From: Candidatus Fermentibacterota bacterium
GTDB taxonomy: Bacteria; JAFGKV01
NCBI GenBank assembly: GCA_016928395.1
Contig: JAFGKV010000042.1
Coordinates: 1 to 9,683 of the forward strand
DNA length: 9,683 bases
Direction of reading: 5' to 3'
In this document: in pieces, positions 1,411 through 7,714 of the stretch
Layout: the number at the start of each line of letters is the position of its first letter
How positions within the stretch are numbered: the first letter of the stretch is position 1
The notes under the pieces: generated by a model
Seen by the model: only the letters and a program-made list of their open reading frames with translations
Told to the model about the DNA's origin: nothing
Databases searched by the model: none
Made by a program: the position numbers and the translations under genes

Positions 1411-2112
1411 TCAGCCCTCGATAGAGAGCAATTCAACCTCGAAGACAAGCGTGGCATTTGGCCCGATCTGCGATCCGGCGCCCCGCTCGCCATAGGCCAG
1501 ATGCGGCGGAATGAACAGCCGGTAGGTGCTGCCTACGGGCATGAGCTGCAGCGCCTCTACCCATCCGGGTATGACGCCACCGACTCGAAACGTCGCGGGT
1601 TCCCCTCGACTATGGGAGCTATCGAATTCGGTGCCGTCAATGAGGGTGCCGCGATAATGGACCTTCACCGTGCTCTTGTCCGTGGGCCTCGGCCCCGCAC
1701 CCTCCGTCACGACGAGATACTGCAGACCACTGGCCGTCGTAATCACGCCCTCGGCGCCCTTGTTCGCTTCCAGGAAGGCCGTTCCTTCCTCCAGGTTGTG
1801 CGCGGCCATCTCCCGAGCCTTGCCTTCCTGCCTTTCGCGGAACGTGTTTGCGAACTCCTCCCGGACTTCCGTGGCTTGTTCTGGGCTCATCAATAAGGCC
1901 TGCCCTTCCATTGTGTCGCGGATGGCCTGTGCCAAGACGGCTACATCCACCTCAATCTCCAGGTTCTTCAGATTGCTGCCGATATCCAGCCCCAGGGCAT
2001 AGCTAAAGCGTTCGGCGTCGGTAGTGAGGACACTCTTTTGGGGCACCTCTTTGCTGCAGGCAACACCGAGAACCAGTATGGCAAGAATGAGAAGCGTACA
2101 TCGTGGTTGCAC
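1411..2112 (-). CDS. FKBP-type peptidyl-prolyl isomerase, Mip/FkpA-like lipoprotein
   Basis: A 233-residue isomerase that would catalyse cis-trans isomerisation of X-Pro bonds in exported proteins. The signal peptide ends in the lipobox LGVAC with Cys19 as the lipidated residue, so the protein should be membrane-anchored in the periplasm or outer membrane. Residues ~32-117 form the helical FKBP_N dimerisation domain (start DAERFSYALGLDIG, then a charged helix rich in Glu/Arg). Residues ~139-232 form the FKBP domain with active-site residues in place: Tyr153 (VHYRG), Asp164 (EFDSS), the VIPGW turn with Trp184, Tyr207 (LAYGERG) and Phe224 (LVFEVEL). I chose the GTG at 2112 because GAGGA (2118-2122) lies 5 nt upstream and it gives a compact signal peptide; an earlier GTG at 2145 would add 11 residues. 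The gene starts 70 nt after the MPE-HD gene, so read-through from the polyphosphate cluster is possible. Identification of the family is firm; which of FkpA, Mip or FklB it corresponds to is not. Confidence 0.93.
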   Translation of the reverse strand: MQPRCTLLILAILVLGVACSKEVPQKSVLTTDAERFSYALGLDIGSNLKNLEIEVDVAVLAQAIRDTMEGQALLMSPEQATEVREEFANTFRERQEGKAREMAAHNLEEGTAFLEANKGAEGVITTASGLQYLVVTEGAGPRPTDKSTVKVHYRGTLIDGTEFDSSHSRGEPATFRVGGVIPGWVEALQLMPVGSTYRLFIPPHLAYGERGAGSQIGPNATLVFEVELLSIEG

Positions 2113-2129
2113 AATGTTCCTCGCTTTCC

Positions 2130-2179
2130 AAAAACACACAGCCACCCGCGAACACGGCGTCTCCGCGCCCGACGGTGGC
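2130..2179 (-). terminator. Possible weak terminator/attenuator between the MPE-HD and FKBP genes
   Basis: On the minus strand GCCACC (2179-2174) pairs with GGTGGC (2146-2141) around a loop that holds an inner GGCG/CGCC stem (2169-2166 with 2159-2156). The sequence then runs TGTGTGTTTTTGG, with five T's at 2134-2130. The stem is short and the T-run begins 7 nt after it, so termination would be partial at best. If real, it would uncouple the FKBP gene partly from the genes upstream. Confidence 0.3.
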
Positions 2180-2182
2180 CCT

Positions 2183-3514
2183 CTATGTCAGACGCCACTC
2201 GATCGCCAGATGCTTGCCCAGGGCCGACTCCAGAAGCTGGCCCTTATCCAGGGCCGCCTGGCGCTCCATCTCGGCAGGCCAGCGAACAAGGCAGGTAATG
2301 GCAATCCTCTTTGGCGTGATCTGGCAGGTAAAATCGTCCACGAGGCTGCGGTGGGTACGGTCGAGACCGTCGGCCACACGGAGAATCCCGGCCATCACAG
2401 CGACTCGCCTTCGGTCTTCCTCGGCCAGTACCATGTACTGCCCGTGGGTCGGCTTGGGAAGCGCCTTGCGATGATACCGCGCCGTCATGCCGATGAGGAG
2501 TCGGTCCCGCTCGTCAAACGGCAGCACCGTCGAACTGAGAATGATCCTCAGCGCGGTCTTATGATGCGCCTGTTGGCCCTCGATCCATCCGATATCATGC
2601 AGGAGCGCGGCGCAGTGGAGAAGGAATCGCTCCTCTGTCCCCAGCATGTGCAGTCCGGCCAGATCGTCAAACAGTTTGAGGGATAGCCTCGCGACTTGGT
2701 GGGTGTGCTCGGCCTCATACTCGCACGAGCGAGCCAGCTCCAGCACTGCCTCGATTCGAGAATCCGCGTTCCTCTCTGGCACAACAGCCGCCGCCTCGGG
2801 AGGAGCCGTCTCCGGCATCACACCTTGTCGCAGAGCCTCAGCTCCGTAGGCGGGGAGCCCACAGGCTTTCATGGCCACCGCAGTGGATTCGACGGGGTAG
2901 TCAACCCGCCTGAAGCTGGTGCGCACGACGCGCTCGGTGATGGTCATCACTGCGTAGGAGGCCCGGGGATCGCCGTCATGAGACTGGCCCACACTGCCTG
3001 GATTCATGAAGACCACGCCGCGGATGCGCCGAGTCCCGGCCGTCGGCTCGTGCCCGTAGACGACCACTTGTGCGTGGGACTCGTCAGCGAGGATGCGGAG
3101 ATGATCCAGAGTTGCCTGATGGGGAAGCCGTGCCGACGGCGATCCATGGACCAGCAGAACCCGGACACCGGCCACGGTGAGTTCAAGATGACGCGGAACC
3201 GACCGAAGAAACCGATGGTGTCCCTCACTCAGATGCGCCTGGGCATACCTCAACGGGACAAACTCATGCTGCATGGTCCGATGGACCGTATCCTCCATCT
3301 GGTGGAGCTTGAGCAGCAGCAGTTCATCGCGGCCCAAGACAGAAAGCGCCCCCAGCTCCTGCAGCCGGTCTATGACCGCACCGGGAAACGGCCCAAAACC
3401 CGTGAAGTTGCCCACATTCCAGATGGCGTCGACCCTGTGCTGCCGTGCATCGGCCACCACCGTGTCGAGAGCGGGAAGATTCGCCCTGATGCCACCCAGC
3501 ACCGCCACCCTCAT
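2183..3514 (-). CDS. Degenerate metallophosphoesterase-fold domain fused to a PPX/GppA-type HD domain
   Basis: A 443-residue two-domain protein. Residues 1-215 follow the YfcE-type phosphodiesterase pattern, including ANLPALDTV, GFGPFP, LLVHGSP, VVYGH and NPGSVGQSHDGDPRASYAV. The metal-binding residues are largely gone: SDIHGN is GGIRAN (7-12), GD is GN (Asn36), GNHD is GRDE (61-64) and GHTH is GHEP (154-157). Only His123 and His155 remain. Residues ~250-400 are an HD domain with expected ligands His270, His306-Asp307 and Asp382, plus AHHKT (316-320), ARYHRK (345-350) and RVADGLDRTHR (379-389), as in the C-terminal half of exopolyphosphatases. The last ~45 residues (ending FWR-like IEWRLT) also resemble the PPX tail. 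The ATG has GAGAGG 7 nt upstream, inside the last codons of ppk, and begins 4 nt after the ppk stop, so translation is probably coupled. The role is inferred as polyphosphate or nucleotide sensing or hydrolysis through HD; the N-terminal domain is probably inactive as an esterase. Confidence 0.85.
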   Translation of the reverse strand: MRVAVLGGIRANLPALDTVVADARQHRVDAIWNVGNFTGFGPFPGAVIDRLQELGALSVLGRDELLLLKLHQMEDTVHRTMQHEFVPLRYAQAHLSEGHHRFLRSVPRHLELTVAGVRVLLVHGSPSARLPHQATLDHLRILADESHAQVVVYGHEPTAGTRRIRGVVFMNPGSVGQSHDGDPRASYAVMTITERVVRTSFRRVDYPVESTAVAMKACGLPAYGAEALRQGVMPETAPPEAAAVVPERNADSRIEAVLELARSCEYEAEHTHQVARLSLKLFDDLAGLHMLGTEERFLLHCAALLHDIGWIEGQQAHHKTALRIILSSTVLPFDERDRLLIGMTARYHRKALPKPTHGQYMVLAEEDRRRVAVMAGILRVADGLDRTHRSLVDDFTCQITPKRIAITCLVRWPAEMERQAALDKGQLLESALGKHLAIEWRLT

Positions 3515-3518
3515 GGCA

Positions 3519-5711
3519 CTACCTCTCTTCGTGCCAAGACCCCCGGTGGGCGATCATCCACGCCTGGGAGTCAAGAGGCGCCTCGCCTGAGCCGGGTTGG
3601 CGCCGTTCGTATGAGCCGTTGGGCAGGAGGATCCGGGCCTGGCCCGTGTCCCGAAGATGAACCTGGAGGATCTCTCGCAGGTGCTCCCTCGAGAGGGAGT
3701 CCTTCACGGGAAACAATACCTCCACCCGCCTGTAGAGATTGCGCGGCATGAGATCGGCGCTGCCAATGAGCAGCTCCTCGTCACCGCCGTTGTGAAAGTA
3801 GTACATTCGTGCATGCTCCAGAAAGCGCCCCACCACCGAGGTTACCCTGATGCTCTCGCTCAGGCCCGGGATGCCCGGCCGCAGGCAGCAGACCCCCCGT
3901 ACCTGCAGATCGATGGAAACACCGGCGGCAGAGGCCATGTACAGCGCCTGGATGCAGGCCTTGTCCACAAGTGCGTTCAACTTGAACGCGAGGCGGCCGT
4001 CTCCCTCGCTCAAGTGGCGCTGGCGTTCCCGCTCGATCCGGTTGACGATCTCATCCCGCATGCGTCCTGGCGCCACGATGAGCGTGCGGTACGCGTCGTT
4101 GCGGGAATAGCCGGTCAGGGCATTGAACAGATCCGAGGCATCGGCGCCCACCGCGGGGTCGCAGGTGAAGTACCCCAGGTCGGCATACACCCGGGCGGTG
4201 CTTTCATTGTAGTTGCCCGTGCCCAAATGTACGTACCGCACAATACCGTCGCGCTCCCGCCGCACCACGAGCAGAAGCTTGGCGTGGGTCTTCAGCCCCA
4301 CGAAACCGTAGACGACGTGGATCCCTGCCTGATCGAGCGCCCGGGCCCACTCGATATTGTTCTCCTCGTCAAAGCGAGCTTTCAGCTCCACCAGAACCGC
4401 GACCTGTTTTCCCCGCTCCCGCGCCTCCATGAGCTCAGCTACCACGGGCGAGTTGGCGCCCACGCGGTACAGCACCTGCTTGATGGCGATCACCGCCGGA
4501 TCCCGGGCCGCCTGGTGGAGAAACTCCACCACGGGGGCGAAGCTGTCATACGGGTGATACAAGACTCTGGGGCGGCGGCGAATGGCGGCGAAGATGTCTT
4601 CGGTCTTGAGTATGGGAGGCGCCGAGGGTACGAACGGGGCGTCCTTCAGGTCGGGCCGGTCCATGGCGGTGAACTGCATCAGATCGGACGCGCCTATAAG
4701 CCCTGTGACTGAGTAGACTTGATAGGGAGCCAGCTCAAGATTCGAGGTCAGGATATCGCGGATACGATCGGGGGTGTCGCTGGCGATCTCCAGCCGCACC
4801 GGAGATCCGAAGTGGCGCATTCCCACGCCGTGCTCCACCGCCGCCAGAAGGTCGGCTGCCTCATCTTCCTCTAGATCCTGATCCGCGTCGCGGGTAACCC
4901 GGAAGGGGTATGCCGCCAGCACCTCCAGCCCAGGGAACAGCATGTCGAGATTGGCGGCCACTACCTGCTCGATCCACACAAAGCGGTTGGAGGCAGCCTT
5001 GGCCAACCCGAGGCTGCCGTAATCAGTCGAGGCCTCCTCGCTGGGGATCCGCAGCAACCGCGGGAATGTACCCGGAACCTTGATCCTGGCGAACCGCTCC
5101 CCCTTCTTCGGATCTCGCGCGACCACGGCAAGGTTCATGCTGAGGTTGGAGATATGGGGGAAGGGGTGGCCGGGATCGAAGGCCAGTGGCGTGAGCGCGG
5201 GAAACAGCTCCCGCTCGAAATACTCGCGCAGCACCCGCCGCTGATTGCGCTTGAGATCGGCATAGTCCTGCACCTTGATTCCCGCGTCTTTGAGCTGCGG
5301 GATGAGCACCGTACGCCAGTACTCCGACACGGTCTCGAGTTCAGGGAGGACATCCCGTCGGATGGCGGCCAGTTGCTGATCAGGGGTCATGCCGTCGGCA
5401 GACCGTTCCTGGGCGCCCATGGCCAACTGCCATCGGAGGCCTGCAACCCGAATCATGAAGAACTCGTCAAGGTTGTTGGCGAAGATGGCCAGGAACTTCA
5501 CCCGCTCCAGCAGCGGATGGCGGTTGTCCAGTGCCTCCTCCAGCACCCGGTGATTGAACTGCAGCCAGCTCAACTCCCGGTTTATGTAGAGATTGGGGTC
5601 ATCCAGGTCCACGGGGAGAGTCACGGCCTGCCGAATCGTGGCGGAAGAGCCCTCTGAAGAAGCGTGATCGTCGGCCTTCCGGGAGCGGGAATGGCCCTTA
5701 GACCTCGCCAT
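3519..5711 (-). CDS. ppk1: Polyphosphate kinase 1
   Basis: A complete 730-residue PPK1, which reversibly transfers the terminal phosphate of ATP to polyphosphate. The N-terminal domain begins with NRELSWLQFNHRVLEEA (about 44-60) and LDEFFMIRVAGL (81-92). The head domain includes HPFPHISNLSMNLAV (182-196). The two phospholipase-D-like catalytic domains carry YHPYDSF (385-391), AIKQVLYRV (409-417), THAKL (His476, equivalent by spacing to the autophosphorylated His435 of E. coli), HLGTGNYNESTAR (His495, equivalent to His454) and LEHARMYYFHNGG (His633, equivalent to His592), then SADLMPRNLYRRVEVLFPV. It is slightly longer than the E. coli enzyme (688) because of a basic, Ser-rich N-terminal stretch of about 35 residues. 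The ATG lies 14 nt inside the end of the CYTH-CHAD gene and has AGGA 8 nt upstream. The overlap upstream and the 4-nt gap downstream mark it as the centre of a polyphosphate operon. Confidence 0.98.
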   Translation of the reverse strand: MARSKGHSRSRKADDHASSEGSSATIRQAVTLPVDLDDPNLYINRELSWLQFNHRVLEEALDNRHPLLERVKFLAIFANNLDEFFMIRVAGLRWQLAMGAQERSADGMTPDQQLAAIRRDVLPELETVSEYWRTVLIPQLKDAGIKVQDYADLKRNQRRVLREYFERELFPALTPLAFDPGHPFPHISNLSMNLAVVARDPKKGERFARIKVPGTFPRLLRIPSEEASTDYGSLGLAKAASNRFVWIEQVVAANLDMLFPGLEVLAAYPFRVTRDADQDLEEDEAADLLAAVEHGVGMRHFGSPVRLEIASDTPDRIRDILTSNLELAPYQVYSVTGLIGASDLMQFTAMDRPDLKDAPFVPSAPPILKTEDIFAAIRRRPRVLYHPYDSFAPVVEFLHQAARDPAVIAIKQVLYRVGANSPVVAELMEARERGKQVAVLVELKARFDEENNIEWARALDQAGIHVVYGFVGLKTHAKLLLVVRRERDGIVRYVHLGTGNYNESTARVYADLGYFTCDPAVGADASDLFNALTGYSRNDAYRTLIVAPGRMRDEIVNRIERERQRHLSEGDGRLAFKLNALVDKACIQALYMASAAGVSIDLQVRGVCCLRPGIPGLSESIRVTSVVGRFLEHARMYYFHNGGDEELLIGSADLMPRNLYRRVEVLFPVKDSLSREHLREILQVHLRDTGQARILLPNGSYERRQPGSGEAPLDSQAWMIAHRGSWHEER

Positions 5712-7599
5712 GGGACTCGTCCTGCTCTAGCGTGGCCAATGCGGCGGTGATACGGCCGAAGAACTCCGGTCTTTGGAACTCGGCCCACCACTCGGGAAAG
5801 GTCTGAAGCAAACCGGCCAGTTCGCGCTGCCGGGTGGCCAGGTACGAAGCAACCCCTGGCGCCAGCACCGGTTCCGGGGGAACCGCCGCCCCCTCTACAT
5901 GACCCCATGTGCCCCAGGTCAGGTAGTCGCGGAGAAGTCCGCTGGCCACCACCGAATCCTGGATGTCGCCGAGGTGATCCTGGAGAAGGCGCAACTGGCC
6001 TATCACGTGGGCGGCCTCAGGACCCAGCACGGCCCGGAAAAACTCCATGGTGTACCGGAGGCGCTTCACCGCGATACGAAGCCTGTGAAGGCGGGGCAGG
6101 GAGGGATCAAGACCACTGACCCACTCGTCGAAGGCGCCAAGGGCCGCAACGCGGCTGTACACGACGGCGAAAAGAGCATGGCGGACACGGCGGGGGCGGG
6201 GCGAACCGTCACCACGAAAAGGAGGCCGTTCAATGGCCCCGGGCTGCTGAAGGAACGCCTCAAAAGCCGCGACAAGCCGGCCATATCGCGGCCCGTCCAA
6301 GTATTCGAGCAGCCTGCTGCGGGCCGCGGCATGGGCCTGAGCCCACACCGCTCGCAGCGACGCCAGCTCTTCGTGTTGGAGAGGAGGTAGAGATTCAAGG
6401 TAGCGGGCTGTCTTCTCCCAGAAGACATCAAGATCCCGTACGGCGCCCAAGGCCCGCCCAAGGCGGCGAAGCCCCTTGCCCAGAGGTCGAACCTGGGCGG
6501 GATCCAGAGCATCCTCGAACACCATCATCGCGGCCCGCAGCCTCCTGGTGGCCACCCGCATATCGTGCAGGTGTTCCGGGTCGTCCCCCGACCGGGCGCC
6601 TGCCTCATTGGCTTTCATTCGTTCAAAGTGGCGGGTCATGATGAGATGCGCAGCCTCGGCCATGGTCGATGAGACGCTGAAGCCAGCTTCCGCTGACGCG
6701 GCCGGTTGGCGCTCTTCCCCAGAGGGACAGCGCCGTGGTCCCTCCGGGGCCGCCCCTGCCAGTATCTTGCGGGGAAACACGCCCATGCCCCGTGTGCGGA
6801 AGGCGGCAGACCAATGCCGCACGCGGCGTTCGGACATCCCCGCCACGCGGCCCGCCTCGGTCTGGGTGGCGCCCCCATCCAGCGCCAGCAGGACCGCGGC
6901 GCGTCGGCCGTGCAGATCCATCCTCGCGGCCAGAGATCGGCACTGGGTACGCTCGGCATCGGTCAGGAGCCCCTCGACTTGTGCCATGGCCCGTTCCGGC
7001 TTTGACCTGGTCTCCGGCGTCAGCCCCCACTCCCCGCAGAGGGCCTGCGCCATCCTCGCGATATCATCCTCCGATCCCTGCGGGCCCAGTTCTACCTCCG
7101 CCTCAAGGTAGTGATCGGTATGCCTCCCTCTTCGTGCGGTGACGTCATCGAGGCTCAGAGTCCCCACAGTGCGCCCACCGACACTGATCTGCCGCGTGAT
7201 CCGGCGTTGGCCGATAGAGACCAAGGCCTGCAACGGCCGGTCGCCCACAATGTTCATGGCCATGTCCCGGGCCGCGCCTTCGGGCCAGTCACGGGGTGGA
7301 CCGTGTGCCTGCACGGAGATCTCCTCACGACGGTAAATCCCATCAGCCGCCGGGGCACAGCGCTTCAGGGTCATGGTCACCTCTCCCAAGGCTGTGCGGC
7401 GACGCAAGACAAACCCCGCCTCGTGGACGGCACGGGTCTGGGTGTCGAAGTAGACATCCTGAATCTCCACGGTAGTCGCTGCACCGAGCCGGAAACTGCC
7501 CAGTGAAGAAACGGTAGAGAGCCCGCTCAGCGTCTGTTCATCCGGCATGGCGAACTTCGCTTCGATCTCAGTTTGGATGTCGCTGTGATCTGGTTTCAC
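5698..7599 (-). CDS. CYTH - helix-turn-helix - CHAD polyphosphate-binding protein
   Basis: A 633-residue protein with three parts. Residues ~9-205 are a CYTH domain (triphosphate tunnel fold) with the ExExK motif EIEAK at 11-15, YFDT (50-53), LRRR (65-68), TLK, YLEAEVEL (164-171) and KPERA (200-204). Residues ~233-276 look like a homeodomain-type helix-turn-helix: RAAVLLALDGG, then TQTEAGRVAGMSERRVRHW and AAFRTRGMGVFP. Residues ~310-620 are a CHAD domain with its conserved His/Arg/Lys helices: LHDMRVATRRLR (344-355), VRDLDV (387-392), LHRLRIAVKRLRY (504-516) and LQDHLGDIQD (539-548). CYTH-CHAD proteins such as E. coli YgiF hydrolyse inorganic triphosphate, and CHAD domains bind polyphosphate; the HTH is not part of that standard layout. 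I took the GTG at 7599 because it directly precedes the CYTH fold and has GGTGG upstream; an ATG at 7674 would add 25 residues without family resemblance. The gene overlaps ppk1 by 14 nt. Confidence 0.92.
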   Translation of the reverse strand: MKPDHSDIQTEIEAKFAMPDEQTLSGLSTVSSLGSFRLGAATTVEIQDVYFDTQTRAVHEAGFVLRRRTALGEVTMTLKRCAPAADGIYRREEISVQAHGPPRDWPEGAARDMAMNIVGDRPLQALVSIGQRRITRQISVGGRTVGTLSLDDVTARRGRHTDHYLEAEVELGPQGSEDDIARMAQALCGEWGLTPETRSKPERAMAQVEGLLTDAERTQCRSLAARMDLHGRRAAVLLALDGGATQTEAGRVAGMSERRVRHWSAAFRTRGMGVFPRKILAGAAPEGPRRCPSGEERQPAASAEAGFSVSSTMAEAAHLIMTRHFERMKANEAGARSGDDPEHLHDMRVATRRLRAAMMVFEDALDPAQVRPLGKGLRRLGRALGAVRDLDVFWEKTARYLESLPPLQHEELASLRAVWAQAHAAARSRLLEYLDGPRYGRLVAAFEAFLQQPGAIERPPFRGDGSPRPRRVRHALFAVVYSRVAALGAFDEWVSGLDPSLPRLHRLRIAVKRLRYTMEFFRAVLGPEAAHVIGQLRLLQDHLGDIQDSVVASGLLRDYLTWGTWGHVEGAAVPPEPVLAPGVASYLATRQRELAGLLQTFPEWWAEFQRPEFFGRITAALATLEQDESHGEV

Positions 7600-7714
7600 G
7601 CCGCACCACCAATGAGCTGCACGCGTCTCGCGCCGGAAGCCCCATCGGGCTCCGTGGGCCCGACGCGATGGCATGCACGCCCGAACGCAGCTTCGTTCTG
7701 GAAAGAGGGAAAAC

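Follow-up and report, generated by a model that had tools for sequence, protein, structure and literature searches.

Genes of unassigned role often adjoin ppk1, CHAD and ppx in polyP operons. In the Ppx/GppA family, it is the N-terminal ASKHA domain that carries PPX catalysis (PMC11234463), and deletions in V. cholerae GppA showed that function needs domains I-II, domains III-IV being dispensable (PMC7552824). CHAD domain proteins (phosins) bind polyP (PMC6537752), and VPS29, a retromer subunit and metallophosphatase relative, is an inactive, rigid scaffold (PMC3101248).

The gene described here (P0001; 2183..3514, minus strand; 443 aa) lies in a stretch of 9,683 nucleotides, analysed whole and hereafter called the window, and fuses a metallophosphoesterase (MPE) half to an HD half. 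It shares with the stand-alone YfcE/Metallophos_2 phosphoesterases (3rqz, 3qfm, 1nnw; MJ0936, YfcE) the fold, over its full length to the GLP..G helix, and the NPGSVGQ..DGDPRASY loop, but lacks the metal ligands, is joined to an HD domain and stands beside ppk1. The HD half is homologous to Ppx/GppA domain III (D. radiodurans PPX, 8jgo; E. coli PPX, 1u6z), whereas the ASKHA half is absent, the HD set is complete where the solved PPXs carry HE, and the domain occupies a separate tree branch. VPS29 may be comparable as an inactive metallophosphatase relative, but is eukaryotic and stand-alone, with other losses and other partners. Phosins share the operon without sequence relation to the fusion, and intact MPE-HD fusions in two further genomes (G135, G319) have the same architecture and CHAD/ppk1 context but keep all MPE ligands. 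Literature searches found no description of an MPE-HD fusion. The best reading, to which we give about an even chance, is of a polyP-operon HD phosphohydrolase carrying a pseudo-MPE as scaffold or ligand-binding domain.

Architecture of the fusion protein

Pfam searches divided the protein into an N-terminal pseudo-MPE domain (residues 1-232; 2819..3514, minus strand) and a C-terminal HD domain of the PPX/GppA domain III type (residues 251-443; 2186..2764, minus strand), joined by a fast-evolving linker (residues 233-250; 2765..2818, minus strand; 40% identity to the sister orthologue described below over residues 226-250). The N-terminal half matched Metallophos_2 (PF12850; 64.8 bits, 1.2e-17, residues 1-194; cut-off 27), and the C-terminal half matched Ppx-GppA_III (PF21447; 52.9 bits, 5.1e-14, residues 253-402; cut-off 27.3) as well as HD (30.6 bits, 4e-7). 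The actin-fold PPX half (PF02541) had no match anywhere in the fusion protein. These results uphold the original prediction of a YfcE-type phosphoesterase scaffold, an exopolyphosphatase-like C-terminal half and a missing actin-fold half.

Since residues 1-233 aligned end to end with the intact phosphoesterase family (hhalign, E 9e-44, 233 columns), the N-terminal half is a whole phosphoesterase rather than a fragment, and it includes the GLP..G helix that stand-alone members typically have at their C-terminus. The sequence RQG at 229-231, considered as the PPX linker motif REG, was rejected, being part of this helix. The nearest solved structures were 3rqz and 3qfm for the N-terminal half and 8jgo (D. 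radiodurans PPX residues 320-489; 2.4e-27) for the C-terminal half; AlphaFold2, with only two sequences as input, gave a mean pLDDT of 40. The protein thus belongs to the calcineurin-like MPE fold family (profile over cut-off, whole domain) and falls outside its active members, with two of eight metal and active-site positions kept; it carries Ppx/GppA domain III and the ligand pattern of HD metal-dependent phosphohydrolases (H...HD...D plus further His), and is no Ppx/GppA exopolyphosphatase, as ASKHA domains I-II are absent. A YqeK-type Ap4A hydrolase was rejected as its identity, there being no NCBIfam match.

Operon context and the sister species

Directly upstream lies ppk1 (polyphosphate kinase 1; 3519..5711, minus strand; TIGR03705, 831 bits), whose TAG stop at 3521-3519 is separated by 4 bases from the fusion start at 3514, which follows AGAGAGG. 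The ppk1 start is overlapped by a CYTH-HTH-CHAD gene (5698..7674, minus strand; CHAD 1e-59, CYTH 2e-12), and the fusion gene is followed by a gene for an FKBP-type prolyl isomerase (1411..2145, minus strand; profile match), the link of which to the polyP system is uncertain. Between CYTH and CHAD the former protein has a helix-turn-helix (HTH_28, 2.7e-5, residues 257-296) and is possibly a DNA-binding phosin. Positions 31-580 of the window hold an imperfect tandem array (period about 91 bp, 5.8 copies) with CGATAG sub-repeats.

A full-length orthologue with 70% identity was found in Candidatus Eisenbacteria isolate Prado127, the sister species (L016:4001-5329), where the order CYTH-CHAD, ppk1, MPE-HD, FKBP is identical and the ppk1 stop and fusion start overlap as GTGA. 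The proposed link to ppk1 therefore holds as adjacency in both species, and translational coupling, which the original prediction took as given, is plausible from the gene spacing. The scan of genome contigs for relatives returned the sister only, a third member genome of the taxonomic family gave no match, and the viral contig scan gave none.

Relatives of the fusion and its likely history

Relatives were sampled in 386 genomes across bacteria and 291 genomes in the phylum of G293. Single ORFs encoding an MPE-HD fusion beside CHAD, ppk1 or ppx were found in the window, the sister and, among the 386 genomes, G135, the last a full-length fusion (35% identity) in an operon of ROK kinase, CHAD, MPE-HD, PPX and PPK1. 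In G319, from the same sample, the order PPK1, CHAD, MPE-[HD] is split by two contig ends; as both pieces run off contig ends, a single gene is probable. The fusions of G135 and G319, two unrelated genomes, keep every MPE ligand, so the ligand loss in the window lineage is derived, and the fusion appears to be a modified copy of a rare accessory protein rather than a wholly new kind, since presumably working versions occur in unrelated bacteria. The alignment of homologues accordingly contradicts the idea that all ppk-linked copies have lost the ligands: these intact homologues of the same architecture, of the sort that the original prediction named as refuting it, refute a family-wide pseudo-domain and leave standing a retained one in the Eisenbacteria lineage. 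The PPX of the G135 operon (L041:7835-9391) matched the actin-fold model over profile positions 21-109 only, with a strong domain III, so that here, too, a catalytic half may have degenerated.

Within the phylum of G293, G596 has between its CHAD and PPX genes a 364-aa protein that combines a complete HD with an MPE both shortened and degenerate (27.7 bits, slightly above the Pfam cut-off of 27), and is a more extreme case of MPE ligand loss than the Eisenbacteria. G626 has an intact MPE after CHAD, running to the contig end, while in G627 and G597, close HD relatives of the window, an HD alone follows CHAD without the MPE half; G370 likewise has an HD alone adjoining CHAD. CHAD, PPK1 or PPX genes adjoin HD relatives in most loci looked at. 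At one further locus (L049:3259-4764), a PPX domain-III-like HD with HN in place of HD is fused ahead of CHAD, beside a second, intact HD gene.

In the HD tree, in which most branches have moderate support, the window, sister, G627, G597, G319, G370 and G596 group together (SH-aLRT 89) apart from PPX domain III. In the MPE tree, a branch (84/90) separates fused from stand-alone copies, and the stem to the two Eisenbacteria is long (0.93 changes per column); the window and the very long G596 branch are weakly joined (66/40), and the MPE loss may have had one origin or two. These trees fit, without proving, a single fusion event after which several lineages inactivated or lost the MPE, the HD half always being kept. 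By the HD tree, the HD family of the fusion is related to PPX domain III yet separate from it, and it is commonly found stand-alone beside CHAD or PPX genes.

The HD half

The complete HD set in the original prediction (His270, His306, Asp307, Asp382) stands, and the homologue alignment adds His317, His318 and His348. The residues are encoded on the minus strand at 2705..2707 (His270), 2594..2599 (His306-Asp307), 2561..2566 (His317-His318), 2471..2473 (His348, in RYHRK) and 2369..2371 (Asp382, in VADGLD). Of the stand-alone HD proteins, 26 of 30 have the full set, as do the window and G596, against just 19 of 42 PPX-length proteins; the E. coli and D. radiodurans PPX structures have HE instead of HD, and in E. 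coli PPX the first His of the set is replaced as well.

Because PPX catalysis lies in the ASKHA domain and GppA domains III-IV are dispensable, there is no ground for assuming that the HD half cuts polyP. By analogy with these proteins, it is unlikely, as far as is now known, that the HD domain degrades polyP, and that part of the original proposal of a binding or sensing domain on a polyP-degrading enzyme becomes doubtful; the live options are nucleotide or other phosphohydrolase activity, or polyP binding.

PolyP binding is central to the alternative that survives best, though we consider it only a one-in-four prospect in everyday terms, that is, clearly less probable than the favoured reading: the HD half would be no enzyme but, like its counterpart in classical PPX, a module for polyP binding and assembly acting in trans with a short two-domain PPX, a split exopolyphosphatase in which the MPE half is passenger or spacer. 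The window genome encodes a separate 305-aa two-domain PPX (PF02541 match) on another contig, while PF21447 matches nothing in this genome but the fusion protein, so the classical PPX modules all occur, though divided between genes. In G047, the genes for a 303-aa PPX and a 219-aa HD protein overlap, and the homologous region of E. coli PPX is known as a polyP-binding, non-catalytic domain, going by the titles of Saito 2005 and Alvarado 2006 in PMC6537752. Set against this, the metal set, needless for pure binding, is better kept in stand-alone HDs than in PPX domain III, and stand-alone HD genes often occur beside a full-length PPX with its own domain III, at a distance of about 1.5 kb in 10 genomes (G457, G458, G463, G468, G469, G476, G480, G640, G641, G642). 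The separate PPX gene, together with the separate and commonly stand-alone HD family, also speaks against the claim that a pseudo-MPE had replaced the catalytic half of a PPX. At L045:5672-7173 a two-domain PPX overlaps a stand-alone HD gene, and a gene for a Pit-type phosphate transporter that includes a PhoU domain comes next; the overlapping pair may be a split exopolyphosphatase.

Loss of the metal site in the MPE half

The MPE motifs, located from the homologue alignment, are all on the minus strand. At the D-x-H motif (3485..3493; 23 of 26 homologues have D8 together with H10), Asp8 is Gly and His10 is Arg (Ala and Arg in the sister); at the GD motif (3407..3409), Asp36 is Asn (still Asp in the sister); and at the GN-x-D motif (3323..3331), residues 62-64 are R-D-E (S-D-E in the sister, N-Y-D in the family). 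His123 (3146..3148) is retained (Asn in the sister), and at the GH-x-H motif (3044..3052) His155 is kept and His157 is Pro (His157 kept in the sister). At positions 8, 10, 36, 62, 63, 64, 123, 155 and 157, the window reads GRNRDEHHP and the sister ARDSDENHH, against D-H-D-N-x-D-H-H-H in all 23 intact homologues (x being Tyr in 20 of 23). The substitutions listed by the original prediction (G8, R10, N36, R62, D63, P157) are correct, H123 and H155 remain, and Asp to Glu at position 64 is a further change; Asp63 is present as described, but the His it was said to replace is not the subfamily norm, which is Tyr.

Six of the eight metal and active-site positions are therefore altered in the window protein, and the window, sister and G596 are the only ones of the 26 homologues to have lost ligands. 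Scoring as kept the residues invariant in intact MPE relatives, the window retains 2/8 ligand-site residues vs 17/20 other invariant residues (Fisher p 0.005) and the sister 3/8 vs 17/20 (p 0.02). The MPE half would thus be without catalysis in the Eisenbacteria fusion, and the simplest reading of this pattern is a loss aimed at the metal site while the fold was kept up.

Compared between window and sister, the MPE half had a dN/dS of 0.18 and the HD half one of 0.11, beside 0.14 in PPK1, 0.18 in FKBP and 0.20 in CYTH-CHAD, values from one pair (dS about 1.2), just two Eisenbacteria sequences carrying the dead-MPE fusion. Plain decay, in which the MPE half is a functionless, dying remnant kept only because the HD half lies downstream in frame, is an improbable account, somewhat behind a split exopolyphosphatase. 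It draws on the series among related HDs from intact (G319, G135) through dead (window, sister) and heavily shortened (G596) to absent (G627, G597, G370), and on the two sisters having lost different ligands; it is opposed by a dN/dS like that of the neighbouring FKBP gene, by the 17/20 non-ligand invariant residues kept in both species, and by an MPE half free of frameshift or length change. As 17/20 such residues are kept and dN/dS is close to that of neighbour genes, the evidence supports a dead half maintained by selection rather than in simple decay, and selection together with the pattern of ligand loss supports a retained pseudo-domain in the Eisenbacteria lineage. Continued MPE catalysis through a rebuilt, non-canonical metal site is very improbable: the two species have D63 and E64 in common, H155 remains and the NPGSVGQSHDGDPRA loop is unbroken, but D8, H10 and N62, metal-binding or bridging in the family, are lost in both, with Arg in place of His10.

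Proposed function and significance

On the favoured reading, an HD phosphohydrolase with a pseudo-MPE domain, the protein would serve as an accessory of the polyP operon and trace back to two phosphohydrolases that became fused. Its HD half would most likely be functional as a metal-dependent phosphohydrolase, kept in place at the polyP/PPK1/CHAD machinery, and probably act on a small molecule rich in phosphate, either short polyP or a nucleotide (NpnN or (p)ppGpp, for example). The MPE half, presumably catalytic in the ancestor, would in the lineage of the Eisenbacteria have lost the dinuclear metal site and been kept as a non-catalytic scaffold or phosphate-ligand-binding domain positioning or controlling the HD half. 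We infer the HD catalysis, its substrate and the regulatory role of the MPE half alike. That a binding or sensing pseudo-domain should sit on an HD enzyme, as originally proposed, is plausible given the ligand-specific loss and the dN/dS of 0.18, and VPS29, which the MPE profile also matched, offers a precedent for an inactive MPE scaffold (PMC3101248). Against this reading, the MPE half is evolving faster (65% identity between window and sister vs 79% for the HD half) and, with the MPE-less G627 and G597, fits a domain on its way out; the polyP-binding, non-catalytic role by which the homologous E. coli PPX region is known also tells against an HD enzyme. A bolder version, which we hold to be a long shot, is that loss of the metal site occurred in two or more independent events (Eisenbacteria, G596) and turned the pseudo-MPE into a sensor of phosphate ligands that needs no metal and controls an HD phosphohydrolase where polyP is synthesised, at the complex itself; this version is based on the basic residues (R10 or K10, and R62) that stand in for MPE ligands.

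An HD protein that recurs in polyP operons with a complete metal site, one that is broken in the solved D. radiodurans and E. coli PPX, points to a candidate hydrolase in polyP metabolism. The intact, dead and lost-MPE fusions would form a natural series for probing the role of the MPE half, and for deciding between catalysis and polyP binding as the task of the HD half.
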